IMG/VR virus record: IMGVR_UViG_3300007516_000141
Coordinates: 1 to 24,304 of that record
DNA: 24,304 nucleotides
Origin: a virus
Direction: 5' to 3' (one strand)
The notes under the pieces were generated by a model. That model saw only the letters and a program-made list of their open reading frames with translations, made no database searches and was not told the origin of the DNA. Position 1 is the first letter of the stretch. Every line of letters starts with the position of its first letter. A program made the position numbers and the translations under genes. Of the stretch, positions 7,880 to 23,261 are shown piece after piece.

Positions 7880-8500
7880 ATGGCCTCTGACGTTCAAATC
7901 GCGAACCTTGCACTTGCAAGGATTTCTCAAGATCAAATTCTTGCGCTCAGTGATGATTCCCCATCAGCGCGTTTCTGTAACGCCTTCTTTGACCAAGCGC
8001 GGGAAGAGGTATTGCAATCAAATCCTTGGCGATTCGCCATAAAGACTGCCACCCTATCGAAGCTAACTACTACCCCGCTTCTGGAGTGGGAGTTCGAGTA
8101 CCAACTTCCCTCCGACAATCTGCGGGTGCTCTCACTGAATGGTTCCGGTCCGCATGATCGAAGCGATTACTTTGAGATTCAGGGGAAGACGCTCCTGACC
8201 GATGAGGGATCAGCCATCATCAAATACGTTTTCCGGGTCACTGACGGTTCTTTCTATCATCCGCTTTTCGTCTCTGCGCTTTCCTGCCAGTTGGCGGCCA
8301 TGATCGCCAAGCCGCTGACAGGAGACGAGAAGATGGCATCTTCCTTGTTGATGGAATATGCCCGATTGACTGGGCCTGAAGCTCGCCGGGTCGATGCCTA
8401 CCTAGGCCACCGACGCCCAGCCTTGCCTGCGGTTACTAGCGAACTGGTGGCGGCGCGGCGGGTTTATAGCTCTGGCGGCGGAATCTACCGAACCTTGTAA
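7880..8500 (+). CDS. Tail tubular protein A, T7 gp11-like
   Basis: A 206-residue adaptor ring protein that joins the portal to the nozzle. The N terminus is characteristic: ASDVQIANLALARISQDQIL, then SPSARFCNAFFDQAREEVLQ, then NPWRFAIKTATL (about residues 1-60). The series N-x-AL-x-RI, R-x-C-x-x-x-(Y/F) and (N/H)PW-x-FA is the recurring pattern of this family. T7 gp11 is 196 residues, close to this length. The C-terminal part has helices with LFVSALSCQLAAMIAKPLTG, also typical. The gene starts just after the second strong terminator, without a visible ribosome binding site. The next gene's ATG overlaps its TAA by one base (TAATG, 8498-8502). Confidence 0.9.
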   Translation: MASDVQIANLALARISQDQILALSDDSPSARFCNAFFDQAREEVLQSNPWRFAIKTATLSKLTTTPLLEWEFEYQLPSDNLRVLSLNGSGPHDRSDYFEIQGKTLLTDEGSAIIKYVFRVTDGSFYHPLFVSALSCQLAAMIAKPLTGDEKMASSLLMEYARLTGPEARRVDAYLGHRRPALPAVTSELVAARRVYSSGGGIYRTL

Positions 8501-10935
8501 TGCCTTTCTCGCAACTCATTCCCTCGTTCAACGCGGGCGAACTCTCGCCATACCTCGACGCACGGCCCGACATCGAGAAGTACGGGAGCGGCTGCCGGAC
8601 GCTTGAGAATATGATCGTTATGCCCTACGGCGGCGCGTATCGTCGGCCCGGAACGGAATACCTCGGCGCGGCCAAGCATTCAGACAAGCGGTGCCGGCTG
8701 CTCGGGTTCAATTTCTCAACAACCACAAACTTCATGCTGGAGGCGGGTGACCTTTATCTTCGCTTCTGGAAGAACGGGGCCAGCGTGGAAGACCCTGTCA
8801 GTCCCGGGAACCCGCTTGAAATCGTAACGCCCTATCTTGAGGCAGACCTGAGGGACATCCAATTCATTCAGATTAATGACGTGATGTTCTTCGCGCACCC
8901 TTCCTATGCGCCCCGGAAGCTCTCGCGGTTGGCAGACAATTCTTGGCGGATTGAAGAATTGATACCCGATTGGCCCGCTCTTCTCGACGAGAACATTACC
9001 AAGATCACCCTGACGGCGAGCGCAACCACCGGGGACGCCATCACGATCACGGCGACAGCCCCCGCGTGGGCGGGGTCAACCGACTATCTTGCCGGGGAAT
9101 ATGTTTCTAACAGCGGGAGCATCTATAAAGCGGAGACAGATCACACCTCGGGCACCTTCGCCACAGACCTTGCCGCAGCCAAGTGGACGCTTCACACGGA
9201 ATTCACTGCGGCCAGCGTCGGGAGCTACTACCAGATTGGGCATGATAGGGACACGGCAAGCATTGAAAAAACAATCGTGGCAAATGGCTCCTCCTCAACA
9301 ATTGCGGTACTCGGGGATTGGGAATTGACGACCTATGGAACATGGACCGCTTCCGTGACCTTGGAGCGAAGCTATGACGGCGGGACGACATGGGCAACGG
9401 TCCGGGGGCCATATGTCAGCAAGAATGATCGCAACATTTCCGCCACCGGCACGGAAGAGAGTGAGGCACTTCTTCGGTTGACGGTGACAAATTATGTCAG
9501 TAACACGTCCGCCCGCGCTTTGCTGGAACTCAAGAACTCCAGGGAATATGGATTCGTAAAAATCTCGGCGGTAGCTTCTGCGACAAGTTGCACCGCGGCC
9601 GTCAAAAACTCTCTCACCAAGACTACGGCAACGTCCTTTTGGAGTGAGGGAGCTTGGTCGGGGCGGCAAGGCTACCCGCGCACGGTCTCGCTTCATGAAC
9701 AGCGGGTGTATTACGCTGGGACATCCACCCGGCCTCAGTCGATTTGGGGGAGCAATACCGATGACTTTCAGAATTTCCGCACTTCGGCCAATGACGACGC
9801 GGGCCTCTTCTTCTCGCTTTCATCGCAGGAGGCCAACCCGATCCAGTGGATGACCTCGCAAGATCAGCTTCTTATCGGGACCGCTGGAGATGAATGGACG
9901 CTTGGAAGCACGACTGCAGACACTCCAATCACTCCCTCGAATGTGCGGGCGGCGCGGCAATCGTCCTACGGATCGAAATACCTTCGGGCAATGGTCGTCA
10001 ATGATGTGATTCTCTTCGTTCAGCGCCAGGGGCGAAAAATAAGGGAACTCGTCTATCAATTTGAAAAGGATGGCTGGGTTGCCCCGGATTTGACGGTGCT
10101 GGCGGAACACGTCACCAGCGGGGAAATCCTCGAATCGGCATTTCAGCAGCAACCGGATGCCCTATATTGGATGGTGGCGGGGTCAGGCGAACTTGTAGGC
10201 ATGACTTACGAGCGGGATCAAAATGTGGTCGGGTTCCATCGGCATACAACTGACGGCACTTTTGAGAGCGTGGCTACGATCTATGGGGCATCTGGGCCGG
10301 ATGAAGTCTGGTTCTCGGTCAACCGCACAATCAATGGGAGCGTGGTCCGATATATCGAGCGGTTCAGGACTGATTTTCGCGAGCAATTCGAGAATGAGAA
10401 CAAGCCATACTGGTGGTACCTCGACTGTGCCAAGCGGGTGACGAATGATCCGGCTTCTGTTTCGGTCTCCGGGCTGACGCACTTGGAGGCAAAGGAAGTT
10501 GACATTTTGGCCGATGGTGCCGTCTCTCCAGCCAGAACGGTTGCCAGTGGTGCGATTACATTGCAAGCCGCAGCGGGGACCGTGTTGGCCGGACTACGCT
10601 TTACCTCGACCCTTCAACCGATGAAGATGGAAATGCAACTTCGGAGCGGCTCAACTAAGGGGTCCAAGAAGAAAGTCTATCGGGCCGCAGTGAGTCTCCA
10701 CAAATCCCTCGGTGGTGAATATCAGGGCAATGCCGCTGGATCAGCCTGGGATTGGATGTTTTCCCGCACCACTCATGATCCCATGGATTCATCGCCTCCT
10801 GTCTTTACTGGCGACAAAGAATTTCCGGTCACAGGAAACCATTCCAGAGCGGCGGTCATTGCCCTTCGTCAAACTCAACCCTTGCCTCTGACCGTGCTGG
10901 CAATAACGCCACAGTGGGAGGCAACTGGAATATGA
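8500..10935 (+). CDS. Tail tubular protein B (nozzle), T7 gp12-like
   Basis: An 811-residue protein expected to form the hexameric nozzle at the end of the short tail. The start is diagnostic: PFSQLIPSFNAGELSPYLDA, then KYGSGCRTLENMIVMPYGGA and YRRPGTEYLG, a signature of this family. T7 gp12 is 794 residues, matching in size. The middle is Thr/Ser-rich and beta-like (about residues 165-370). Family-like stretches follow, with SLHEQRVYYAGTSTRPQSIW (about 400-419) and VVNDVILFVQRQGRKIREL (about 499-517). It is coupled at both ends: TAATG with tail tube A, and ATGATG around its TGA with the next gene (10932-10937). Confidence 0.93.
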   Translation: MPFSQLIPSFNAGELSPYLDARPDIEKYGSGCRTLENMIVMPYGGAYRRPGTEYLGAAKHSDKRCRLLGFNFSTTTNFMLEAGDLYLRFWKNGASVEDPVSPGNPLEIVTPYLEADLRDIQFIQINDVMFFAHPSYAPRKLSRLADNSWRIEELIPDWPALLDENITKITLTASATTGDAITITATAPAWAGSTDYLAGEYVSNSGSIYKAETDHTSGTFATDLAAAKWTLHTEFTAASVGSYYQIGHDRDTASIEKTIVANGSSSTIAVLGDWELTTYGTWTASVTLERSYDGGTTWATVRGPYVSKNDRNISATGTEESEALLRLTVTNYVSNTSARALLELKNSREYGFVKISAVASATSCTAAVKNSLTKTTATSFWSEGAWSGRQGYPRTVSLHEQRVYYAGTSTRPQSIWGSNTDDFQNFRTSANDDAGLFFSLSSQEANPIQWMTSQDQLLIGTAGDEWTLGSTTADTPITPSNVRAARQSSYGSKYLRAMVVNDVILFVQRQGRKIRELVYQFEKDGWVAPDLTVLAEHVTSGEILESAFQQQPDALYWMVAGSGELVGMTYERDQNVVGFHRHTTDGTFESVATIYGASGPDEVWFSVNRTINGSVVRYIERFRTDFREQFENENKPYWWYLDCAKRVTNDPASVSVSGLTHLEAKEVDILADGAVSPARTVASGAITLQAAAGTVLAGLRFTSTLQPMKMEMQLRSGSTKGSKKKVYRAAVSLHKSLGGEYQGNAAGSAWDWMFSRTTHDPMDSSPPVFTGDKEFPVTGNHSRAAVIALRQTQPLPLTVLAITPQWEATGI

Positions 10936-11408
10936 TGAAAGGCCCAATTCACATTCGAGATATGCGCGAAGGCGATATGGTGGCGTTTGATGCCGTGGGG
11001 CTGGAGTCGTATCGCGCCGCCGAACCGGTGATTCTGACTGTCGGAAAAGGCTGGGCTGTCGAAAACGAAGCTTCGCAGATTGTCGCGATTGGTGGCATCA
11101 TTCCCTCGCATCCAGGCTCAGGAGAGTCTTGGTTCATCATTGAGCCATCTTTGCAAGAATATCTTTCGGGGCTTCGCGCTCTATCGTTCATCCGTTCCTG
11201 TCGTGATTTTATCATCAGCGCATTTGTATCTTTAGACCTACACCGCATCCAAGCCCACATCATCGCTTCCCCGGCAACCGGGTCGTATCAGAGTGCTCGG
11301 TTCGTCCGGTGCATGGGATTCGTGAGCGAAGGAATCCGTCAAGCTTGGGGACCAAGCGGAGAAGATATGGAAGAATTTGTCCTATTTCCACAGAAGGAGG
11401 AGTTCTAA
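10932..11408 (+). CDS. gp13-position GNAT-fold internal virion/assembly protein
   Basis: About 158 residues in the T7 gene 13 slot. The fold pattern is GNAT-like: strand VILTVGKGWAVENEASQIVAIGGI (about residues 30-55, split by a turn), SWFIIEP, a helix, strand HRIQAHII (about 103-110) and helix-turn SARFVRCMGFVSEG (about 118-131). T7 gp13-type proteins and relatives belong to the same fold group. The usual acetyl-CoA loop (Q/R-x-x-G-x-G/A) is not visible before the central helix, which reads LRALSFIRSC, so catalysis is doubtful. Two tandem ATGs (10932 and 10935) overlap the nozzle stop and either could be the start. An upstream in-frame ATG at 10914 is less likely. Confidence 0.7.
   Translation: MMKGPIHIRDMREGDMVAFDAVGLESYRAAEPVILTVGKGWAVENEASQIVAIGGIIPSHPGSGESWFIIEPSLQEYLSGLRALSFIRSCRDFIISAFVSLDLHRIQAHIIASPATGSYQSARFVRCMGFVSEGIRQAWGPSGEDMEEFVLFPQKEEF
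11394..11402 (+). promoter_or_regulatory. Strong Shine-Dalgarno site
   Basis: AAGGAGGAG lies seven bases (counted from AGGAGG) before ATG 11408. It is the clearest ribosome binding site in the window and fixes the start of the gp14-like gene, ruling out the in-frame ATG at 11309. It also shows that the host uses ordinary Shine-Dalgarno pairing, although most genes here rely on overlap coupling. Confidence 0.85.
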
Positions 11409-12196
11409 TGGCTCTCGAAGCACTCGGACTCACATTGGGGGCGTCAATCGCCCTTTATGCCGGAGTTGCCAGTACTGCGGTCGCTGCGGCTGGCGCGGGC
11501 CTGTCCTATTATTCCCAACAACAACAGGCAAGCAATGCTTCTGCCATGGCGAATTACAATCGCCAAGTCGCAGACCAGAATAACCGGATCAACCTGCAAT
11601 TGGCCCAACAACAATCCACATGGCAGGCCCAAAATGCGTCAGCGCGGGCGCAGGCTCAACAGAATAACGCAACAGCCTTAGAGCAACAAGGCCGTGCGGC
11701 TGAGTCTCAGGCGCGAGAGGAGGCCAGCCGCGAGAGGATGCAGAACGAACGCCAACTCGCCTTGCAGCGGGCTCGCTATGGAAAATCCAACGTCACCTCG
11801 GAAGGATCTCCCTTGGCCGTGATGGCTGAAACTGCCTCGCTTCTTGAGCTAGGGGTTCAGGACATCAACTATCGCGGGGACATGGAAGGCCGGGCGTTTG
11901 ACCGGAGGGCACAACTTGAGCGCTTTGAGGCCGGATTCAGCCTTTTCGATGAGGGCCTTGCCCGATATGAAGGTGCGGCGGCTCAAGCTGGGTTCTCCAT
12001 CAATCAAAACAAGGCTCGGGCCGACTACCTGTCCGGCATGAACACCGCGCAAGGGTTCCGAAGCGCGGCGACAGGAACTCTTATTCAAGGGGCGGGGCAG
12101 GCAATCAACGTGGGGACGACTGGTTACTCGAACATTGCCGAAGCGCAACGAACCGTTAAAAAAAATTATGCCCATTCCGCTCGCTCAAATCCCTAA
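11408..12196 (+). CDS. Internal virion (ejection) protein, gp14-like
   Basis: A 262-residue protein in the T7 gene 14 position. It starts with a long hydrophobic, Ala/Gly-rich segment (about residues 3-35, TLGASIALYAGVASTAVAAA), able to span a membrane. A Gln/Ala-rich helical region follows (about 37-110: SQQQQASNASAM, LQLAQQQSTWQAQNASARAQ). The later motif ARYGKSNVTSEGSPLAVMA and the helix with FDRRAQLERFEAGFSLF are typical of this family. T7 gp14 forms an outer-membrane channel during DNA ejection, and the same role is inferred here. The start is set by a strong Shine-Dalgarno site on the stop of the preceding gene (TAATG). The next gene overlaps its 3' end by 29 bases. Confidence 0.82.
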   Translation: MALEALGLTLGASIALYAGVASTAVAAAGAGLSYYSQQQQASNASAMANYNRQVADQNNRINLQLAQQQSTWQAQNASARAQAQQNNATALEQQGRAAESQAREEASRERMQNERQLALQRARYGKSNVTSEGSPLAVMAETASLLELGVQDINYRGDMEGRAFDRRAQLERFEAGFSLFDEGLARYEGAAAQAGFSINQNKARADYLSGMNTAQGFRSAATGTLIQGAGQAINVGTTGYSNIAEAQRTVKKNYAHSARSNP

Positions 12197-14258
12197 CGCG
12201 CCACAACTAGGTCCAGATCCCTCGATGATCGGAGTTCCCCAGGCGAACACGAACCTTTCCGGCGTGGCTGGAAATTTGATGACGCAGCCGCTCCAACAAG
12301 GCTCTTTCGATGGAGCGGCCCGGGGGTCTCAGGCCATTGGTGATTCTATTTCCGGGCTGGGCGAAGTAGGCCAGCGGATTAGCGCGGTGATTCAGGATGC
12401 CAATGAGCGCAAGGCAAAAATGCAGGATGATGTGTCTCTGGCGACGATTGACGGACTCCGATCTGAAAGGCTGGCCCGATACCAAGGGACGCTACAAGGG
12501 AAATCAGAGGACCGCTGGCAGCCTGATTGGGAAACTGAATTTGCCAGCGGAGATCCGAAAGACTTGGAAGGACTGCCATTAAGTCAAGATGGAAGGCATC
12601 GGCTTGCGCTTCAAACGCAGGAATTCATGACGCGGGCTAACACTGGCCTAATTGTATCCTCGAATCGGTCGGCGGTGGAGAGGGGGGCAGGCATAATGGT
12701 GTCCCAAGCGCAAAGGAAATTTGACGATGGCGATGATGCGGGTGGACGGGTGATAGTCTCGCAACTCGTCACCAATGGCGCCTGGCGACAGGATCAGGCG
12801 GACACATTTTTGAAGCAGGTTAAAGAGACCCGGAATGCCAATGAACTGACCGGCTTCATGCAGTCGGCCCCCCCGCAATTTGCGGATGACATGAAGATCA
12901 TCAAAAACGGGAAGGACATCCCGCCCCATTTGCAAGACATGGCGGACCATTACTTTTCTGGTCCCGATGGACGGATGAAGATCGACAAATGGGAAGTCGA
13001 AGCGGCCCGGAACCTCCGAAATTTCCAGATTCAAGGGTCCAATGAAATTGACGATGACATTTTGAGCGGGAACATTACCACGGAAGATCAAATCCATGAT
13101 AGGACGGCAATCCTTGGCCTCGGGGAAAAAGACGCGCGTTCCTTCGTGGATTCGCTGGCGGTAGAGAAATCCACCACACCGGAAGGACAAGCGGCATACC
13201 TCGCGGCTTACGATCAGATGTGGACGGAATCCGTCAATTACGATCCATCCTCGGACACTGACGGCCAAGAGCGGATGAGGATACTTCGTGACATCCGGTC
13301 CCAAGCCATTCCAGGCGAGCGGCAACCGCTCCTAACCAATCTCCGCGAGGCCATTAAAGACGGCATGACCCCGCAACGGGAACGGGCGGCGAACATGGAG
13401 AATGTAATCGACACCATTGGCATGCAAGGGCTTTTGATCGAAAAACCAAAATCCAAACCAGAAGACGACCGTGAGGCTTGGGCTGAATACACGATTGCTC
13501 TGAACCAGAAGAAAGCAGCTTTGAAAAAGTCGGCCCGCGATTGGCAGAAAAAGTGGCCTGAACCTGGCCCGCAAGATGATGCCGATTGGATGAAGTCGGC
13601 GGTGGGATCAAGTACAGCGGGTGCGGCGGCGAAATCTATGTGGCAAACTCCCGGCAACTTATGGAGTTCGTTTATGAGCCGGCAGACGGGCGGCCTTGGG
13701 GATTTTATTCCAATTGTTCAACTGGGGCGCTTTCAGGCGGCTGGAATTTGGGGCGACAAGAAAACGAATGGCGAAGTTCCATCTGATGCGATTCGAGCTA
13801 AAGCCAGCAAACCCCAACCCCAACCAACGCCAGCCACAGGCGGCAAACTCGACAGCGCCTTGATTGATGCAGTGAAACAGTGGGAGGGGTTTAGCTCTGG
13901 TTCTTATGACGACTACAAGCAAACCGCCATCGGCTACGGGACGAAAGGCAAGCCGGGGGAGACCATCACGAGGGCAGATGCCGATAAGCGCCTTACCTCG
14001 GAATTAGAGACTCACGCGGCAAGGGTTGACGCTCAGATTGCCAAGAGCGGAATCAGTCTAAATAAAAATCAGCGGAACGCCTTAATTAGTTTCGATTTCA
14101 ACACCGGCGACATCGAGACAATCATGACATCGAAAAGCGCGGAAGAGATCGCAAGACGGCTCCCGACATGGAACAAATTCACAAAGGGCGGAAAATTGGT
14201 GGTGAGTCGAGGGTTGATAAATCGTCGCCAAAAAGAACTGGAAATGTTCAACTCCTAA
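12168..14258 (+). CDS. gp15-position internal virion protein with C-terminal GH24 lysozyme domain
   Basis: A 696-residue ejection-core protein. Residues about 1-550 are helical and mostly featureless, beginning PIPLAQIPNAPQLGPDPS and continuing IGDSISGLGEVGQRISAVIQ. A Pro/Gln/Lys linker (about 540-555) leads to a phage-lysozyme (GH24) domain. LIDAVKQWEGF carries the presumed catalytic Glu573. SYDDYKQTAIGYGTKG supplies Asp581/582 and Thr586, and the end has SFDFNTGDI and RGLINRRQKELEMF, the usual GH24 closing helix. It probably cleaves peptidoglycan during DNA entry. The Asp-to-Thr spacing is shorter than in T4 lysozyme. ATG 12168 is preferred over 12135 because the added residues look non-native. 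Confidence 0.85.
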   Translation: MPIPLAQIPNAPQLGPDPSMIGVPQANTNLSGVAGNLMTQPLQQGSFDGAARGSQAIGDSISGLGEVGQRISAVIQDANERKAKMQDDVSLATIDGLRSERLARYQGTLQGKSEDRWQPDWETEFASGDPKDLEGLPLSQDGRHRLALQTQEFMTRANTGLIVSSNRSAVERGAGIMVSQAQRKFDDGDDAGGRVIVSQLVTNGAWRQDQADTFLKQVKETRNANELTGFMQSAPPQFADDMKIIKNGKDIPPHLQDMADHYFSGPDGRMKIDKWEVEAARNLRNFQIQGSNEIDDDILSGNITTEDQIHDRTAILGLGEKDARSFVDSLAVEKSTTPEGQAAYLAAYDQMWTESVNYDPSSDTDGQERMRILRDIRSQAIPGERQPLLTNLREAIKDGMTPQRERAANMENVIDTIGMQGLLIEKPKSKPEDDREAWAEYTIALNQKKAALKKSARDWQKKWPEPGPQDDADWMKSAVGSSTAGAAAKSMWQTPGNLWSSFMSRQTGGLGDFIPIVQLGRFQAAGIWGDKKTNGEVPSDAIRAKASKPQPQPTPATGGKLDSALIDAVKQWEGFSSGSYDDYKQTAIGYGTKGKPGETITRADADKRLTSELETHAARVDAQIAKSGISLNKNQRNALISFDFNTGDIETIMTSKSAEEIARRLPTWNKFTKGGKLVVSRGLINRRQKELEMFNS

Positions 14259-14259
14259 C

Positions 14260-17200
14260 ATGGCTTTAATTATCGACCCGGAACCGCAAGAGGACAGCCC
14301 CGTCATTGACGACGCAACCGCCCATAGCTTTATGGAGCGACTCGACACGGCGGGACCGGATGAGCGGCCAACCATTGAGGCAAAACTCCTTCAATACGCC
14401 GACGCACAGGACGCAAGGAAGCGCGAAGTGCAAGGGGAGCATTTCGCCAAGCTCTATACGGACGATGAATTTTTCAAGAAGCAGTCGCGCCAACCCGCCG
14501 TGGTTGATGCTATGGCGGCATCATTGATTCCCGAAACGCTGCCAATCAGGGCGGCAAATCAAGCGTATCTCGAGTTTGCCACGGGGAAGCAACCTGGGGA
14601 ACTGACCGACACGTACGAACATTGGCGGGACGGGTTCGGGCAAAAAGCCAATGGAAAGCCGACCATCACGGATCAGGAAATGTTTTCGCTGGTGCGAGAC
14701 AATTTCACAGGGGAGAAGAAACGAGCGATGGATGAACAACTCATCCTTGGTGATGTCATGAACGGCCTTTTCGAGGAAGCGACGACTGGAGTGGTACAAA
14801 CTGGAGCCGCAGCACTCCAAAAATACAAGACTGAAAATCCCGATTTTGCCAAAGGTCTCAAGCCGGGCGAGGAAGCGCAATATCTCAATGGACTCATGGC
14901 GACGAGGGAAGATCTTCGAGAGAAATTCGACAAATATGCTCCCACCGCAAAGCGCCTCTATGACGAGGTGACAAGTCAGACAGGGCAGAAGGAAGGCTCT
15001 GGCGCGAAGAATGTCATTGGAGAGATTGCCAATATGCCAAAGGCCGACCAAGACATTCTCTTTTCTGCAGTATTGCTGGCCGCGCAACGGAGCGGGTTTG
15101 ATCCGAAAGGGTTCTTGAAGCAGACTGCGGAAACGCTCGGGCGCGCGACCATCGGCACAATGAATCAAACCGTAAGAGTGACGATGGAGGACGGCTTGCG
15201 AAACAAGCTCAGGTCATTAAATCAGCTTGATGTCCCTGAAATTAAATACGGAGGCCCACGAAGCATGGATGAGATTGGAGCATTTGCGATGCTGGGGCCA
15301 AGGTCTCGGTCGGGATTTGAGGAGAGTTACCCGACGCCAGAGAGTAGAGCGAAGGCTAAGGAGGAAATCCAAGATCAACTGAATGTCATTGGCGTTATTC
15401 GCAAGATCGACAATCTTTCACAGGAGGCGGACCCAATCAAGGTGGTCTCGAAAAGCTGGCTTGGGCAAGTGGCGGAAAAATCAGTCTATGGCGTTGCTGG
15501 GTCTGCTGGGATCATGGCTTCCTCAATGATTCCCGTCATTGGTCCAGCGTTGACGTTTGCGGCTTACCGAGCAGGCAACTATGAGCGACTCAGGAACGAA
15601 GCTCCAGATTTAGCCCCAGAGACCGCGAGCAGCTACGCGACAGTCATGGCGATTCCAGAGTCGATTCTTGATAGGTTTCAAATGGGCATTCTTTTCCGTA
15701 AGGCTCCCATCTTCTCTAAAACGCTTAAAGCAATGACGCTTTCCAAAAAAGGCATGGTCGGAAAAATGGCGAATTTCGGAAAGACTGCCAGCGTCATGAC
15801 GGCAGCGGAGACCGGGATTGAACTGGTTCAAAACTTCATCCCGCTTGTGGTCGATCAGCTCGGCATGGCTCTGGAAGAAGATTACCCTCAACATAATTTC
15901 AGAGAAGACCTAGCGCAATATCGTGACGCGATTCCAGAGACCATCGGCACGATGTTGATTATGTCCATGTTTGGGGCGGGCTTCGCCACAATATCAGACA
16001 CGAGAAATGGCCGTCATTTACTCGAATTCGCGCAACCCATGACTGACTCCGGGATTTCCGATGAAGGGGCGGCGAAGATCATCACGGCTCCCACAGAGGA
16101 AGAGAAGCTCGCCATCTTCATAGAGGAGGCAGCAAAGCGGACGCCGGAGAGCATTGCCGCCGGGGTGGCTGCGAGCAATGAGCGGGTGGCGAATCAGAAG
16201 GCGAATCAGGCTCAAGAAGGTAGATCGGAATTGACGGTCTCCTCTGTCCTTGGCGATCCCGATGAGAATGGCAACCCGGCGCAAGAATGGACTTTGACCG
16301 ACTCGAAAGGACAGGTTGTCATTAAGACAAGGGATCAAGCTGCGGCATTGATGGCGAAAGAAGAAGCTGACCGGGCATGGATGACCGGGAAGACATCGGG
16401 CATTGCCGAAGGCTTGGAGCACATCAAGGCCGTCAATGAAGCCATCGGTCGCGGCGAGGACGTTCAAAAGATCCTGCTCGGGAAAGGCTCGCAATCCTTC
16501 CTTGAGATTTACAACGCCGACAAAACGCCAGAACATCTCGATAGGCTTTTCGAGACGGTGCGTTCCCATGGCTACGAGATCAAGGAAGTTGAACAGCTTG
16601 CTGGATATTTCGTCAAGGCATCGAACCGGGGGCGACTTAAGGATGGGATTTACAAATCAATAATTGCGGTGAGTGACGGGGCCGACGGCATTCACCTCAT
16701 GCGGGATTACTCCCAGGACAATTTGAGGCGGGCCATCGAGGAAGGCGACACAACGATTGAATGGGTGCGGGATCAACTTGATTTGCTGAAAGGCCACAAG
16801 GAATTTGCCAACCTCCTGACCGAAACTGATACCAATGTCATTGAAGCGTTCTCGGACGTTGCGGTCTCGTATTTCCTCGGGCGCACGAAAGAAAGCCAGA
16901 TTCCCTCGGGGCTCCGCACATTCATGCGACAAATCGCGGTCTTTTTGCGGGAAATTCTCGTGCGGTCGTATCGGCTCAAGCGAGCGATTGCGGCGGGCGA
17001 CGTGAACCAGAATTTCCAACAACTCCTTGCCACATCGACTGGGCTTGACGTTGACCAGATTGCCCGCATGGAGGGCGAGAAGGAAGGGCGTCGGATGCAG
17101 CAAGAGGCACTTGATTCGGTCAACGCCGGGGAAGGGACGCCGGGGGTTGAGCTTCTCGACGTGCTGACCAGTTCAGCCGAGAAGCTGCCAGACACGAAAT

Positions 17201-20200
17201 CGCCATTCTTCACACCGGAGATTGGCAGGCTGAAAGAATTGGTACAGCAACTTGGCAAGGGAGAGTTTGCAACCCGCAAAAAGATGAGGATCAAGGATCT
17301 CTTCTCCAATGACGCCAAAGATCCAGACTTGCTGGTCGGTGCGTTCAATGAGGCGGGCCATGCCTTCTTCACGGTTGATGACATGGTGCAGGCATTGGAG
17401 GAACGGATTCGGACTGGCAAAGCGCAAGTGGGGACAATTTCTTCTGATGCGGTATATGGGGATGGGAACTATTCAATCTCCAAAAAACAGGACGCCGAGT
17501 ACATGGCGGCTGTGGAGAGCGGCGACGTTGAAACTCAACAGGCGATGGTTGACGAGGCCGCGATGGCTGCGGGGTACGCGCCTCAGTCAAAGTTCAGAGA
17601 CGGTCACAGCGCGCCTAGCAATTCGCGGGCTACAGACGAACAAGTAAAAGAGGATGGAGCAGACGCCGCGCTGGATCAGGTGGCTCGCGGGGTTCATAAT
17701 CAACCTGCTGACTATTTTGATCCCGTAGTCGGACCACGTTTTTACTCTTACACCGATAAAAACGGGATGGAAGCATACCGCGCCATCAAGGCGGCAATGG
17801 TTGCAATAAACAAGGGGAAGTCCCCAAATATTACCGTTTACCGTGCAGTTCCCTTATCTGTTAAAAACACCCGGATAGAAAATAGAGATTGGGTGAGTCC
17901 TTCTCGCGGGTATGCCGTTGATCATGGGGAGTCACGGTTTGGCGAGGGTGAATACCGCATCATCAAGGAAAGCATCCCTAGCAAAGAACTTTTTTGGGAC
18001 GGCATCGACATTCGGGAATGGGGCAAGGACGACGATCAAAACCGCGTTTACAAGAACACGGAAAACAACATAAAATCAGCGGACCCAATCACGCGAGACG
18101 AAAGCGGCAACGTGATTCCGCTTTCGGAGCGGTTCAAACCCGAAAGCGACAGCATCAACTACTCCATTGGAACTAAGGCGTTCGCGCGCCACGCTGACCT
18201 TGAAGCGAAGCACAAGGCTGGCACGATCACCGAAGCAGAGACGGCGGAGGCTCAGGCGTTGGTGGATGCGGCGGCGATGAAAACAATCGACAAGGTCCCC
18301 AAATCTAAGGCTTTTTCCGCCTTATCTGAATCTGAGTCGTCGGAGTTTTTGCAAGATATTGACGGATTTGCGCCACTGCCAAATGACGATCCGACCAAAA
18401 TTGATATATTTGAAAGGTGGATTTCTGTCTTAAAGAGCCGCGGGGTTCAGTTTCTTGATGGGTACCATGTTACCAATGCAAGCCGAGAGGATGTTGTTAG
18501 TTCAGGAATTGAAGGATCAGAAGTTGATTTGATTGGTCGGACAGGTGGAAATGCGCGAGGGAATTCGGTATATTTATTTCTTGAGACTGATGAGATTTTA
18601 AGAAGTTTTAATGGTGTTATGGGAGCACCGGGATTCACTCCGAATGTCATTCATATTAAAATTCCGCTTAATCAGCTTGGAAACCTGAGATGGGACTCGA
18701 ATTTCAATGTTTCTTATGAAACGAGAAGCGCGGTTAGAGTATTAGACGATGTGCCGTACGACAATGTTCTTGGCGTATATAAAATTGAAATTCCTGGGAC
18801 CGACCCGTTCACCGGCGTCCCGCTAGACCAGCGGTTCGATTCCTCGCAGGACAGCATCAACTACTCCATCTCCAAAGGCACAACTGACCGGGTGCAGGCC
18901 GCTCTCGAAGACAGGCTGAACCGAAGCCCTGACGCTCGCCTGGCACTCTACAAGCGGGCCAAGGTCAAGTTTGACGAGGTGCGGAAAGATCGTGGAAATT
19001 CCACCGATCCCAACAGGAAATTTTCCTCACTCCTGCAAAGCATGAGGGAACTAAATGCGATTCTTATAGTGCTCCCGAAGGATATTCGCGGGAAGGTCGG
19101 CGGGATGATGCCACTTGCCAACATGGGCAAGGATACCATACAAGGCAACCAGGTTGCCACCGTGGACAAGTTCCTCGAAAAGCGGATTGCCATGATCGAC
19201 AAGGAACTTGAGCGGGTGTTGAAGAAAGAATATCTCGCCGGATTGCGGAAGCTCATCAAGAAACTTCAGCCTGTGAGGTCAAGCGGCGGCGCCGCCAAGT
19301 CATTCCTTGGAGATACGGCTCAGGAAATTGCGATTGATGCCGGAAAGCTCGCGCTCCTCACGAATGATGAGGTTGCCAAGGAGATGCTTGATCTCGATGC
19401 GGCTATGAATGAAGGCCGGACCGATCAGAACCTCTATGAGCGGTGGTCGATGCTGAATATGTTCGGAGACCTAAAGGGAAGGGACGCGGCCACCTTGGCC
19501 ATCGCTTTTGATTGGCTCAAGAAGGTGGCTCAAGAGGGGCGCGACAAAACGAAGATGACCCGCGAGGCCCATTTCGCCAGCCTGAAAGAAATACGCTCTG
19601 CCCTCCTTGATGATATTGGCCGGGTTGAACTGTCTGACAGTTTCAGGGCGTCGCATAAAAAGTTCTTCGGAAGGGCCGGAGATTGGTCGGGTTCAGTCCT
19701 TCGTAACCATCTCTCCTTCGAGCAGTTCCTTGCGACAATTTTTCAGAACAGTCCCGAGCAAGTTAAATACTTTTTTGAGCGGATGATGAAGGCCGATAAT
19801 GCGGACCAAGATATGCGAATCCGTTATTCGCTTGAACTATTGGCGACAATTAAAGCCGGGGCCAATGCGGCAAAGAAGACAGCCGGGAAAGCAGCTATTG
19901 ACCTGATGGCACCCCATGAAAACGCGGTCATAATCTTGGAGAACATAAAGACTGAGACCGCAAAGCTGACTGTCGAGCAGGCGGAAAAGATGGCACTTGG
20001 CGAGATTGACTCTGGCAAATTCACGAAAGAAGAAATCCAAGACGCCTTGGATTCTCAGAGAGAAGAGCTTGCCGAGCGTGATGCCAAGGCGGCGGCAGAG
20101 GGAAGGGATAATGCACCGCTCGCCCAACGTGAATTTGTTGAGGTTAGCCGCAGGGTCGGAGTTGAAAAGGGCGCGACTCTATCCAGAAACCAAGCCATTC

Positions 20201-21831
20201 AGCTTCTCCTCACATGGAACCAGCGTGACGGTCGGAAGAAAATGAAGCTGGGCGAATGGAGGGAAGACACCGGCGAGCAGTTGCAGGCCTTCATCGAGAA
20301 AGACCCTGTTGCGGTCAAGGTCATGGATTTTCTTCAAAAGTTTTACAGTGAGGGAGCGGCGAGAGTAAACCCTGTTTATGTTCGGATCTTCGGCATGAAT
20401 ATGCCTACGGGGGAAAATTACGCCCCAGCAAGCTATGACCACCAAGGCGACGAGGTTGAGATTGGCCCCGATGGCATGGCAACTTCGGGCGGCTCTACGC
20501 CGGGATTCCTCAAGGGAAGAGTCTCTCATAAAGCATCAGTCTCACCTTCGGGAGCCATCACCATCTTTCAACAACACCTTGCCCAACAATCCCACTGGGT
20601 CAACTTTGCGGAACTGGGCCGGGACTTTAAGCACATCTTCGCAGATGCCGACATGAAGAAATCCCTTCGCGCCAAGTTTGGGAATTACGCGAACGAAGAA
20701 GTCTCGAAGTGGACGAGTCTCCTTGAGACTAGAGGGGGCGACAGGTCAAATTCGATGGCGTGGATGAATGGCCTTTTAGGAACTCTTATCGGCGGCAAAG
20801 CAATCTCATCCCTAGGGTTCAATATGCGGACCTTGACAATGCAGACCGATGCCGGGATGCGATTCATGTTTGCAATGGAACCGGGCGAGGTTGTCCGCGC
20901 CTTCTCTGACCCAGCCGCATTGGTTAAGTCCATGCCTGCTATTTGGTTCTCAGAAGCCGTTCAGCGGAGGATTAAAGGCGGGATGAGTCCTGCCATGCAA
21001 TTCGTTTTCCAGCAATACTCAGCGAAGCCTGGGGTCATGGCGAACGTAGCTCATGCGTCGATGGCACCAATCAACAGGACAGACGCTTTCTTCACCACTA
21101 TTGGGAGCGCGATTGTCTTCCGTTCTGCTTACACCACCGCAGTTGCGGAAGGGATGAATGAGAAGATGGCTGTTGACCACGCAATGAAGGAGGTTGACAA
21201 GGCCATTTATAGGTTCTCCCAGCCGATAGGCGTGGGGCAAAAGTCTCTGATTGAGAACTCTGGCAATATCCTTACCAAATCAATCATGATGTTCATGAGT
21301 GACCTCCGATTCAAGAGCGCGATGATGATTGAGGCAGGCTTTGAGATTAAGAAAATCGCCGAGGAGGGCAAAGGCAACTGGCAAAAGCCCTTGAAAACCA
21401 TCTTAACGATCGAGGCAATGGCATTTATCTCGCATTCTATGGGGAATCTTTATCGGACCCTGTTGAGCGACGATGAGCCAGAAGATATTTGGGCGCGGAA
21501 GGGATACTACAAGGCGCTCGCCCTAGCTCCGTTTGCTGGCCTTATGTTCGGCGGCACTATTGCCGATGTTACCTTATCGAAGCTGTTCCATGAAAGATTC
21601 TTTATGCCGTCAAGAGATCCGGTTGTGGATACCGCCATGCGAGGACTCAGGACGCTAAATAACATTGACGAGACATTCAATGTCGATGACCCCGAGGAGA
21701 TGTACCGCCAATGGCGAAACATCTCAAAAACAATTTCCGTTACTCCAGGACTCGCCGCCCCCGCAGCCGCCCTGAATCTCATCTCGCCTGCCTTCGGTCT
21801 GGCTGAGCGGTTAAAAGAAATGGAGAAATAA
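14260..21831 (+). CDS. Giant gp16-position ejection protein / polyvalent protein with two ART-like domains
   Basis: A 2523-residue protein, nearly twice T7 gp16, probably ejected with the DNA. Residues 1-400 are helical. Hydrophobic stretches lie at about 408-440 and 558-585. Residues about 858-900 (NVIEAFSDVAVSYFLGR) resemble the tail of a zincin domain with no HExxH before it. ART-like domain 1 (about 1110-1260) has VYRAVP (R1195), DWVSPSRGYAVDHG (1210-1223) and LFWDGIDIREWG (1244-1255). ART-like domain 2 (about 1385-1510) has GYHVT (H1403) and SVYLF (Y1438). Repeated borders end in INYSI or NYSI (1070-1073, 1299-1303, 1533-1537). A long helical region follows, then an LPD38-like part (about 2180-2390) and hydrophobic segments (about 2378-2440). 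The gene begins one base after the preceding stop. Confidence 0.85.
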   Translation: MALIIDPEPQEDSPVIDDATAHSFMERLDTAGPDERPTIEAKLLQYADAQDARKREVQGEHFAKLYTDDEFFKKQSRQPAVVDAMAASLIPETLPIRAANQAYLEFATGKQPGELTDTYEHWRDGFGQKANGKPTITDQEMFSLVRDNFTGEKKRAMDEQLILGDVMNGLFEEATTGVVQTGAAALQKYKTENPDFAKGLKPGEEAQYLNGLMATREDLREKFDKYAPTAKRLYDEVTSQTGQKEGSGAKNVIGEIANMPKADQDILFSAVLLAAQRSGFDPKGFLKQTAETLGRATIGTMNQTVRVTMEDGLRNKLRSLNQLDVPEIKYGGPRSMDEIGAFAMLGPRSRSGFEESYPTPESRAKAKEEIQDQLNVIGVIRKIDNLSQEADPIKVVSKSWLGQVAEKSVYGVAGSAGIMASSMIPVIGPALTFAAYRAGNYERLRNEAPDLAPETASSYATVMAIPESILDRFQMGILFRKAPIFSKTLKAMTLSKKGMVGKMANFGKTASVMTAAETGIELVQNFIPLVVDQLGMALEEDYPQHNFREDLAQYRDAIPETIGTMLIMSMFGAGFATISDTRNGRHLLEFAQPMTDSGISDEGAAKIITAPTEEEKLAIFIEEAAKRTPESIAAGVAASNERVANQKANQAQEGRSELTVSSVLGDPDENGNPAQEWTLTDSKGQVVIKTRDQAAALMAKEEADRAWMTGKTSGIAEGLEHIKAVNEAIGRGEDVQKILLGKGSQSFLEIYNADKTPEHLDRLFETVRSHGYEIKEVEQLAGYFVKASNRGRLKDGIYKSIIAVSDGADGIHLMRDYSQDNLRRAIEEGDTTIEWVRDQLDLLKGHKEFANLLTETDTNVIEAFSDVAVSYFLGRTKESQIPSGLRTFMRQIAVFLREILVRSYRLKRAIAAGDVNQNFQQLLATSTGLDVDQIARMEGEKEGRRMQQEALDSVNAGEGTPGVELLDVLTSSAEKLPDTKSPFFTPEIGRLKELVQQLGKGEFATRKKMRIKDLFSNDAKDPDLLVGAFNEAGHAFFTVDDMVQALEERIRTGKAQVGTISSDAVYGDGNYSISKKQDAEYMAAVESGDVETQQAMVDEAAMAAGYAPQSKFRDGHSAPSNSRATDEQVKEDGADAALDQVARGVHNQPADYFDPVVGPRFYSYTDKNGMEAYRAIKAAMVAINKGKSPNITVYRAVPLSVKNTRIENRDWVSPSRGYAVDHGESRFGEGEYRIIKESIPSKELFWDGIDIREWGKDDDQNRVYKNTENNIKSADPITRDESGNVIPLSERFKPESDSINYSIGTKAFARHADLEAKHKAGTITEAETAEAQALVDAAAMKTIDKVPKSKAFSALSESESSEFLQDIDGFAPLPNDDPTKIDIFERWISVLKSRGVQFLDGYHVTNASREDVVSSGIEGSEVDLIGRTGGNARGNSVYLFLETDEILRSFNGVMGAPGFTPNVIHIKIPLNQLGNLRWDSNFNVSYETRSAVRVLDDVPYDNVLGVYKIEIPGTDPFTGVPLDQRFDSSQDSINYSISKGTTDRVQAALEDRLNRSPDARLALYKRAKVKFDEVRKDRGNSTDPNRKFSSLLQSMRELNAILIVLPKDIRGKVGGMMPLANMGKDTIQGNQVATVDKFLEKRIAMIDKELERVLKKEYLAGLRKLIKKLQPVRSSGGAAKSFLGDTAQEIAIDAGKLALLTNDEVAKEMLDLDAAMNEGRTDQNLYERWSMLNMFGDLKGRDAATLAIAFDWLKKVAQEGRDKTKMTREAHFASLKEIRSALLDDIGRVELSDSFRASHKKFFGRAGDWSGSVLRNHLSFEQFLATIFQNSPEQVKYFFERMMKADNADQDMRIRYSLELLATIKAGANAAKKTAGKAAIDLMAPHENAVIILENIKTETAKLTVEQAEKMALGEIDSGKFTKEEIQDALDSQREELAERDAKAAAEGRDNAPLAQREFVEVSRRVGVEKGATLSRNQAIQLLLTWNQRDGRKKMKLGEWREDTGEQLQAFIEKDPVAVKVMDFLQKFYSEGAARVNPVYVRIFGMNMPTGENYAPASYDHQGDEVEIGPDGMATSGGSTPGFLKGRVSHKASVSPSGAITIFQQHLAQQSHWVNFAELGRDFKHIFADADMKKSLRAKFGNYANEEVSKWTSLLETRGGDRSNSMAWMNGLLGTLIGGKAISSLGFNMRTLTMQTDAGMRFMFAMEPGEVVRAFSDPAALVKSMPAIWFSEAVQRRIKGGMSPAMQFVFQQYSAKPGVMANVAHASMAPINRTDAFFTTIGSAIVFRSAYTTAVAEGMNEKMAVDHAMKEVDKAIYRFSQPIGVGQKSLIENSGNILTKSIMMFMSDLRFKSAMMIEAGFEIKKIAEEGKGNWQKPLKTILTIEAMAFISHSMGNLYRTLLSDDEPEDIWARKGYYKALALAPFAGLMFGGTIADVTLSKLFHERFFMPSRDPVVDTAMRGLRTLNNIDETFNVDDPEEMYRQWRNISKTISVTPGLAAPAAALNLISPAFGLAERLKEMEK
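17461..18147 (+). other. ART-like cassette 1 inside the giant protein gene
   Basis: The segment runs from the first NYSIS signature (residues 1070-1074) to PLSERF. A helical linker (DAEYMAAVESGDVETQQAMV, residues 1078-1097) precedes the ART-like domain. Candidate active-site elements of the R-S-E type are R1195 in VYRAVP and S1213/S1215 in WVSPSRG. The acidic position is not settled, although E1243 or E1253 near LFWDGIDIREWG are possible. This matches the ADP-ribosyltransferase family described in phage polyvalent proteins (recalled). GC over 17701-17940 is about 47%, modestly below the surrounding gene. Confidence 0.6.
18148..18167 (+). repeat. 20-bp direct repeat, copy 1 (border of ART cassette 2)
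   Basis: Identical over 20 bases to 18850-18869, in the same reading phase, encoding DSINYS plus the first bases of the next codon. It forms the left border of the second ART-like cassette. The flanking protein signature (PLSERF here, PLDQRF at copy 2) is also similar, with diverged DNA. Confidence 0.85.
18148..18867 (+). other. ART-like cassette 2, AT-rich, inside the giant protein gene
   Basis: The segment lies between the second and third INYSI signatures. A short Ala/Glu linker (residues about 1305-1342) precedes a domain with GYHVTNAS (H1403), NSVYLF (Y1438), a VIHIKIPL strand and a closing DDVPYDNVLGVYKIE. The H-x-T ... Y arrangement resembles the H-Y-E branch of ADP-ribosyltransferases (PARP/Tpt1 style). 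The third residue was not identified with certainty. GC over 18481-18720 is about 40% against about 60% a few hundred bases later, which marks it as a likely insertion. Confidence 0.5.
18850..18869 (+). repeat. 20-bp direct repeat, copy 2 (border of ART cassette 2)
   Basis: Exact copy of 18148-18167, 702 bases downstream, a multiple of three. Recombination between the copies would remove one cassette without breaking the frame. Confidence 0.85.
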
Positions 21832-21881: not shown

Positions 21882-23261
21882 ATGAGCGTCTCTTCTTCCA
21901 CCAGCCGGTCGCAATATTCCGGCAATAACTCGACCGTGACGGCCTACGTTGTCCCGTTCCAATTCGCGGCCAATGATGATTTGGTGGTCGTCGTGACGAG
22001 CGCGGCAGGTGTTGCCACGACGTTGATTGACGCAACTGATTACACCCTGATCGGTGCCGAAAACCCGGCTGGCGGCAGCTTTACCACGGCGGTCGCGGTA
22101 GCCGTCGCGTCAACGGTGACGGTATATTCAGAGGTCGCGATTACTCAGCCGGTTGTGTACGTGGAGAATGCGGACTTCCCTGCCTCCACCCAGGAAGCGG
22201 CGCTGGATCGTGTTACCCGGATCTGTCAACAAATCGACCGGGCGGCGAATGCGTCAGTCCGGGTTTCTGATGTCGAGGGAGACCGGGATGAACTTGTTCC
22301 TGTTGCAAACACGATGCTCGGGCTCAACGCAAGTAAGATGCCAATAACGAAGACCGTGGATGAATTGAAAAGCTTCTTGGCTCTTTCCGGCACTACTCTT
22401 GCCGTCAACGCAGGGATGAAGACCTTTGCGGACGCGGGCGAACGTGGGCTTGCCGTGCCGGAATTTACAGGGCAGCTTGGCACCCAGCGAGACACGCAAG
22501 TCCTATATATCTCTTCCGGCACAAGTGCAGGAAATTGGGTCTCATACCAAACCCTTCTCGCCTCTTTCAGTGCGGACGAATTTACAGCGGACACTGCGGG
22601 GAGGCTTCCATTTGCCGATGGCATTTGGGATGCTGCCAAAATCGCGGCTGATGCGGTTACGACCGCAAAGATTGCGGCTGATGCGGTTACAACCGCAAAG
22701 GTTCTTGACGCAAACGTCACGGCGGCAAAATTGGCTGCCGCGCTCGATCTGTCGAGCAAGACGTTGACCATGCCTTCCGATCATTGGAAGAGCATCGCTC
22801 CGGCAGGCTCAATTCTGCAAGTCGTGCAAGCGTCATATACCGCAAATGCGCTCATAACGACGCCGTACATTCCTCACGACGATACAATCCCGCAAATCTC
22901 AGAGGGAACTCAAATTCTTTCTCAAGCGATTACTCCGTTTTCGGCATCAAACACAATTCTTGTTATTTTTCAAGGTCAAAGTTATATGTCCAATAACGCA
23001 GCTCCCATGGCCGCTATCTTTCGCGATTCTGTGGTTGATGCTATTTCAATGCGAGATATGTACCCAGGCGCTGCTCTTAATCAAGCGTTTGTTTCATTCG
23101 TAATTCACCATATAGATTCTCCGGCAACAACTTCTTCAACAACCTACACGGTTCGCGCAGCTCCAAATTCAAGTGGAAATATGTATTTTAATGGGGCAAC
23201 ACTAAGAACTGGAGGAGGAGCATCGGCAGCAACCCTAACCCTCATGGAGATAAAAGGATGA
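21882..23261 (+). CDS. Tail fibre protein, T7 gp17-like N terminus
   Basis: A 459-residue adhesin in the T7 gene 17 position. The N terminus (about residues 1-110) has the tail-attachment pattern of T7-type fibres: RSQYSGNNSTVTAYVVPFQF, a DYTLIG strand, VTVYSEVAITQPVVY, and then a QEAALDRVTRICQQIDRA helix. The middle is a shaft-like stretch with the decapeptide IAADAVTTAK twice in tandem (about 254-273). The C-terminal part (about 305-459), beginning GSILQVVQASY, looks like a beta-sandwich receptor-binding head and is encoded by AT-richer DNA. The gene is separated from the giant gene by 50 bases, and its stop overlaps the next start (ATGA, 23258-23261). Confidence 0.88.
   Translation: MSVSSSTSRSQYSGNNSTVTAYVVPFQFAANDDLVVVVTSAAGVATTLIDATDYTLIGAENPAGGSFTTAVAVAVASTVTVYSEVAITQPVVYVENADFPASTQEAALDRVTRICQQIDRAANASVRVSDVEGDRDELVPVANTMLGLNASKMPITKTVDELKSFLALSGTTLAVNAGMKTFADAGERGLAVPEFTGQLGTQRDTQVLYISSGTSAGNWVSYQTLLASFSADEFTADTAGRLPFADGIWDAAKIAADAVTTAKIAADAVTTAKVLDANVTAAKLAAALDLSSKTLTMPSDHWKSIAPAGSILQVVQASYTANALITTPYIPHDDTIPQISEGTQILSQAITPFSASNTILVIFQGQSYMSNNAAPMAAIFRDSVVDAISMRDMYPGAALNQAFVSFVIHHIDSPATTSSTTYTVRAAPNSSGNMYFNGATLRTGGGASAATLTLMEIKG
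22641..22700 (+). repeat. Two tandem 30-bp units in the fibre shaft
   Basis: Units 22641-22670 and 22671-22700 differ at two bases and encode IAADAVTTAK twice. Related but diverged residues (LDANVTAAK) follow. Such short in-frame units are common in trimeric fibre shafts and can vary in number. Confidence 0.85.

Follow-up and report, generated by a model that had tools for sequence, protein, structure and literature searches.

Two bordered slots with differing cargo in a giant, probably ejected protein of a T7-like virus, and the possible exchange of host-modifying domains

Introduction

Polyvalent proteins are phage proteins of great size and many domains that are believed to be injected into the host; their commonest modifying domain is the ADP-ribosyltransferase (ART), of which a protein has one copy or several (Iyer et al. 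2017, PMC5512222). Neither such proteins nor their ARTs are new, and that they are probably injected has been reported before (PMC5512222; PMC9503650); the ARTs are described as H-Y-D enzymes, the R-S-E family of Alt and VIP2 being absent from genuine polyvalent proteins, and recombinational variability has been raised as a possibility for one polyvalent class (PMC5512222). Here we analyse 24,304 nucleotides of viral DNA (positions 1 to 24,304 of IMG/VR record IMGVR_UViG_3300007516_000141; this whole stretch is called the window), and in particular one open reading frame (ORF) of 2523 amino acids (the giant), the middle of which carries two consecutive bordered segments, or slots, each made of a linker, a variable domain (the cargo) and a border. 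The giant resembles polyvalent proteins in size, in multi-domain make-up and in the ART-type cargo of its relatives (PMC5512222; PF18760), but its slot 1 has an R-S-E pattern as opposed to their H-Y-D, and neither matched linker/border pairs nor cargo swaps are described in PMC5512222. The giant gave no Pfam match to MPTase or LPD domains and has no HExxH motif; these are not required of every polyvalent member.

Three other systems come close. The ejection protein gp16 of T7 ends up partly in the host cytoplasm (PMC8954989), and mosaicism of ejection proteins is known (PMC8954989). The giant has the same place in the virion gene order as gp16, after two internal virion protein genes and a gp15-position gene and before the tail fibre gene, but is about twice as long (2523 against 1318 amino acids) and differs in its two effector slots in the middle of the protein. 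T4 Alt is a virion-borne ART entering the cell with the DNA, of the same R-S-E active-site type as the slot 1 pattern (PMC9503650, PMC5512222); it is, however, a stand-alone protein and not a cassette within an ejection protein, and no sequence link between the two was found. Polymorphic toxin systems, in the outline given by Zhang et al. 2012 (PMC3482391), likewise have a fixed carrier whose effector domain is exchanged by recombination, whereas the slots of the window are internal, in tandem, bordered on both sides and placed inside a virion gene. The giant does not end in a C-terminal toxin with an adjacent immunity gene, for 979 residues of scaffold follow slot 2 and the next gene is that of a tail fibre (immunity genes were not searched further). 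In the literature searched, the coverage of which is incomplete, we came across neither matched linker/border pairs nor swaps of cargo among near-identical phages.

Results

The two slots of the giant

The signature NYSI occurs at residues 1070, 1300 and 1534 of the giant and nowhere else in its 2523 residues, i.e., three times against 0.009 expected from residue composition. The second and third signatures are preceded by PLSERF (residue 1287) and PLDQRF (1521); the first is without a preceding PLxxRF, and closes the upstream scaffold rather than a slot. Motif search places this first signature (residues 1070-1073, 17467-17478; all features of the window given here are on the + strand) at the entry of slot 1. 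The slot continues with a linker of two predicted helices (residues 1071-1107, 17470-17580, from comparison and the structural model), a cargo delimited by alignment and model (residues 1108-1264, 17581-18051) containing VYRAVP (1193) and LFWDGIDIREWG (1244), and a border recognised by motif and comparison (residues 1265-1303, 18052-18168; NNIKSADPITRDESGNVIPLSERF...NYSI), the end of which is the second NYSI (residues 1300-1303, 18157-18168). Slot 2 has its own linker, found by comparison (residues 1310-1341, 18187-18282; RHADLEAKHKAGTITEAETAEAQ...), a cargo with GYHVT (1401, including H1403) and SVYLF (1436, including Y1438), delimited by composition and by alignment with L006 (residues 1342-1514, 18283-18801; L-numbers label the relatives' sequences compared with the window), and again a border defined by motif and comparison (residues 1515-1537, 18802-18870; DPFTGVPLDQRF...NYSI). 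Slot 1 aligns over its full length with the giants of other phages (residues 1077-1305 and 1075-1301), and slot 2 (residues 1321-1543) aligns with a different set of giants; on this sequence comparison the slot segments are genuine modules. Every motif thus stands at the residue given for it in the initial annotation, which had also described two bordered segments in the protein, as the separate alignments bear out.

Replacement of cargo between close relatives

When scaffold DNA was compared among all giants, with slots masked and identical copies left out, four pairs had 83-96% identical scaffold DNA adjoining a slot: L090/L112 (96.4% over 6974 nucleotides), L039/L105 (93.8%), L097/L116 (83.4%) and L023/L116 (92.1%). 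The cargo is unrelated in the first three pairs, and of the same family, at 36% identity, in the fourth. In one and the same slot L097 has an ART-PolyVal domain and L116 a domain of the slot 1 type. The breakpoints are clearest in L090/L112, where the two sequences run at 98.5% identity to nucleotide 2939 of the ORF, just past a GYS motif, after which a leading segment is replaced; 97% identity resumes for 105 nucleotides that take in YSIS and the following slot's linker, behind which the cargo is replaced too (260 versus 125 amino acids), and identity is back at the border, with 94.9% over 4149 nucleotides. Because identity stops and resumes there, two consecutive segments have been exchanged in this pair, with breakpoints at the YSI motif and a short way into linker and border. 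An assembly chimaera is unlikely, as both ORFs are open across all breakpoints and the arrangement of L090 recurs in L050, from another sample. It had been proposed that the slots can hold interchangeable effectors; the relatives, near-identical ones included, support interchangeable contents well, their conserved borders enclosing different domains.

Matched linkers and borders

Separate searches with each slot recovered the same unit, a linker of about 35 amino acids, a variable cargo of about 80-260 and a border of 12-35. Between the window and giants whose scaffold is 21-36% identical in amino acids, the linker is mostly 50-85% and the border 55-74% identical, and the cargo usually gives no match. 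The flanks come in two types, one of each in the window (type I in slot 1, type II in slot 2). Type I has the consensus DAxYxxAVExGDxExAQxMVxxAAxxAGY for the linker and QIKSADPVTYDDxGNVIPLSxRFNxxxxDIRYS for the border, and a DNA pattern for this border alone matched at least 120 stretches. The pattern of the type II border found six further viral stretches (one in L160), all six with a type II linker ahead. The pairing was type I with type I in 101 slots and type II with type II in seven, and no mixed slot was seen among these 108 with a recognisable linker (a further 42 type I borders were without a linker caught by the search pattern); the sequences are not phylogenetically independent and no formal probability is attached to the pairing.

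Each flank type holds several cargoes. Type II slots differ in contents, five of the six outside the window having at their start an ART motif that resembles HG[TD] or WHYS, and the family of the slot 2 cargo, flanked by type II in the window, is flanked by type I in L006 and its duplicates, so that one cargo family occurs in both flank types. Among 149 slot sequences, 87 match ART-PolyVal, seven DUF3990 and one PARP, 23 match phrog_2579 (the slot 1 type), and roughly 30 are without assigned contents; as judged from these matches, slots hold mainly ARTs, of several types, plus some other contents. PF18760 cargo occurs in relatives that share scaffold and flanks with the giant (e.g., L097 and L066).

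Two further giants may be mentioned for their own sake. The 3456-amino-acid frame of L121 (2-10369, - strand) has three consecutive type I borders with a different domain ahead of each, and L160 (1092-11744) has an unusual repeat domain ahead of its type II slot, in which units of about 20 residues (LNFPxLTTVGGxV...) follow one another over a long stretch.

Codon usage and composition

Where flank residues are identical in otherwise unrelated giants, the same codon is used in 43-44% of cases against 35-36% expected; for identical scaffold residues the figures are 36% and 34%. Because codon identity is so little above expectation, the long-term conservation of the flanks would be mainly the work of selection at the protein level. 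Recent DNA transfer as its general cause was rejected for most pairs, their synonymous sites being near saturation, and holds for a few, in which the excess of same codons persists after correction: L034/L128 (28 of 31 border codons) and L116/L099 (20 of 22 linker codons, where 81 nucleotides of linker are the sole similarity detected between both contigs). This excess is what a recent exchange ending in the flank would leave.

The composition of the cargo is foreign to the proteins that carry it. In 97 of 108 slots the G+C content of the cargo at third codon positions (GC3) is below that of the scaffold it sits in (mean difference -0.146, Wilcoxon p = 1.5e-17), and that of the flanks is slightly above it. 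In slot 2 of the window the cargo has a GC3 of 0.37 as against about 0.60 for the scaffold, and the flanks 0.76 and 0.88; the cargo of slot 1 has 0.50. By this measure the cargo looks as though it were drawn from an AT-rich pool.

The domain in slot 1

In an alignment of 19-20 slot 1 sequences R1195 and W1211 are invariant, [ST]-x-S (S1213/S1215 in the window) comes next in most, and E1253 is nearly invariant; the order of these residues matches that of an R-S-E ART. The AlphaFold2 model, built with 19 sequences, has a predicted local distance difference test score (pLDDT) of 88 and places R1195 in the first predicted strand; its matches in the PDB are weak, but the rows of its VIA comparison are nearly all ARTs (KptA/Tpt1, Arr, TreTu, Vis, pertussis S1, cholera toxin, ParT, ExoS, C3). 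Pfam ART profiles gave no match to slot 1, ART-PolyVal (PF18760) none to either slot of the window at E up to 5, and searches of PDB sequences with both slots returned chance matches only. Taken together, sequence pattern and model make the slot 1 domain probably ART-like.

Members of the family come from phages and from genome contigs of Bacteroidota, Bacillota, Spirochaetes, Synergistaceae, Akkermansia and others, most of them encoded in giant ORFs that carry the same flanks. In gut and rumen contigs (L137-L155; Bacteroidales, Synergistaceae, Akkermansia, Spirochaetes and Clostridia) such giant ORFs combine the slot 1 domain with a type I border, and presumably belong to prophages or conjugative elements. 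The domain is shared, too, by mycobacteriophage proteins named 'ParB C-terminal domain' (phrog_2579, E 4.5e-18; tblastn 26-31% identity; e.g., L010 3121-3510), the genes of which are small and lie in the early region, without giant scaffold or slot flanks, unlike slot 1 of the window. This label probably conceals an ART-like domain.

The domain in slot 2

The motifs YHVT and SVYLFL of slot 2 are kept in L006 and would suit an H-Y ART. Profile libraries, as well as phage and plasmid records, gave no match to slot 2, and additional scans of viral sequences and of about 1,160 genomes brought up no relatives other than the L006/L007 contigs (little weight attaches to the negative from the genomes, as these samples lacked a positive control). 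When the profiles of slot 1, slot 2 and 77 H-Y cassettes were compared, no similarity emerged among the three, and we do not claim them as one family. The proposal of an ART-type domain in each slot is half borne out, being probable for slot 1, for its R/S/E pattern and the predominance of ARTs among the weak structural matches of a confident model; slot 2, which matches no profile and whose model has a pLDDT of 41, is a candidate ART.

Gene setting

The virion genes of the window are in T7-like order. Furthest upstream lie genes with matches to terminase large subunit, portal (head-tail adaptor, phrog_332), a protease-like protein, major head protein and tail tubular protein A. They are followed by a tail tubular protein B-like gene at the T7 gp12 position (8500-10935; phrog_376, E 1.8e-198), two internal virion protein genes (10914-11408 and 11309-12196; phrog_308 and phrog_418), a gp15-position gene with a C-terminal lysozyme domain (12135-14258; PF00959, E 3.6e-18; phrog_7), the giant (14260-21831), by ORF call and gene order in the place of gp16, and the tail fibre gene at the gp17 position (21882-23261; phrog_1640 and others). 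The order from tail tubular B through internal virion protein and lysozyme protein to the giant is repeated in L112, L090, L023 and L087. The suggestion that this is a gp16-position protein agrees with this order and, because the position matches that of gp16, we infer that the giant is ejected; by this analogy it is probably the ejection protein of a T7-like virus.

The hydrolase of K1E and K1-5 is located on the gp15 homologue (PMC8954989), and the window, whose lysozyme domain forms the C-terminal part of the gp15-position protein, shows the same relocation, the peptidoglycan-hydrolase domain of T7 being on gp16. Residues 189-217 of the tail tubular B-like protein, in a region that may be an insertion, weakly match a carbohydrate-binding module (CBM_5_12; E 0.00031, under the curated cut-off). 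Other weak Pfam matches, such as KARI_C, are below their cut-offs and were set aside.

Discussion

We favour, at a probability of roughly two in three, the interpretation that the giant is a gp16-position ejection protein with two exchangeable linker-cargo-border cassettes that modify the host by way of nicotinamide adenine dinucleotide (NAD+). The giant would be ejected on infection, its middle carrying two consecutive effector cassettes in which linker and border come as matched types. Recombination at or just inside the conserved ends would replace the cargo, and one scaffold could in this way present different domains, slot 1 holding an R-S-E-type ART-like enzyme and slot 2 a domain that may be an ART of the H-Y type, either of which might use NAD+ to modify host proteins or nucleic acids. 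The flanks would be a protein frame which, being conserved, could also act as recombination ends. It is tempting to go further and to see in the matched pairs, of at least two mutually exclusive types, docking slots that frame any ART-like cargo and double as recombination ends, in tandem and supplied from a shared AT-rich pool; this extension we hold tentatively, at somewhat less than even odds.

Several points weigh against the interpretation we favour. Since the searches yielded no close relative that spans the slots of the window (L002 and L003 stop short of them), exchange in the window itself is argued from flanks and composition, and is observed in relatives. With synonymous sites near saturation in most flanks, these need not generally be recombination arms. 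The ejection of the giant is argued from the position of its gene. Slot 1 has weak structural matches in the PDB, those to ARTs included (lowest Foldseek E 1.4; highest VIA Z 4.5, to KptA), and the low-confidence model of slot 2 had few relatives for its alignment.

The alternative to be taken most seriously, though in our opinion unlikely, is that illegitimate recombination moves each cassette as a whole, its flanks being passengers needed for cargo folding and without a role in exchange. The constant company of linker and border types would fit this, as would the mainly protein-level conservation of the flanks and the likeness of slot 1 to L023, with which it shares linker, cargo and border at 75%, 63% and 67% identity despite an N-terminal scaffold at 30%. 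Near-identical pairs break inside linker and border, however, and not outside them, and a few unrelated giants have only flank DNA in common (L099/L116). That the cassettes are exchangeable but inert, as structural spacers or decoys inside the virion, seems improbable to us. Slot 1 does match known ARTs weakly, slot 2 is without a class, and the activity of either is putative; yet R, S and E are kept in slot 1 across phages and contigs of several bacterial phyla, and the majority of slots outside the window give a match to a curated ART family. Least probable of all is an absence of exchange, with linker and border as the outer, conserved portions of a single ART-like fold whose middle diverges fast in an arms race, for although most slots match some ART family and the end of the ART-PolyVal model adjoins the border region QIKS, the cargo is foreign in composition and unrelated in length and sequence at 94-96% identical scaffold DNA (L090/L112 already contradict it), and one slot can hold an R-S-E domain (L116) or an H-Y ART (L097).

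If the exchange of cassettes in an ejected giant is as we interpret it, effectors could be read from genomes by their borders, anything between a linker and its matching border being cargo, which would give a search rule for host-modifying enzymes of new kinds. An R-S-E type in slot 1 would extend the ARTs of polyvalent proteins, because H-Y-D only is reported for these (PMC5512222), and the recombinational exchange of polyvalent-protein domains would go from suggestion (PMC5512222) to observation. Natural matched pairs such as L090/L112 differ in little beyond their effector segments, so that the role of the effectors in host range or defence would be directly testable. The picture would then be one of related viruses trading host-modifying tools.
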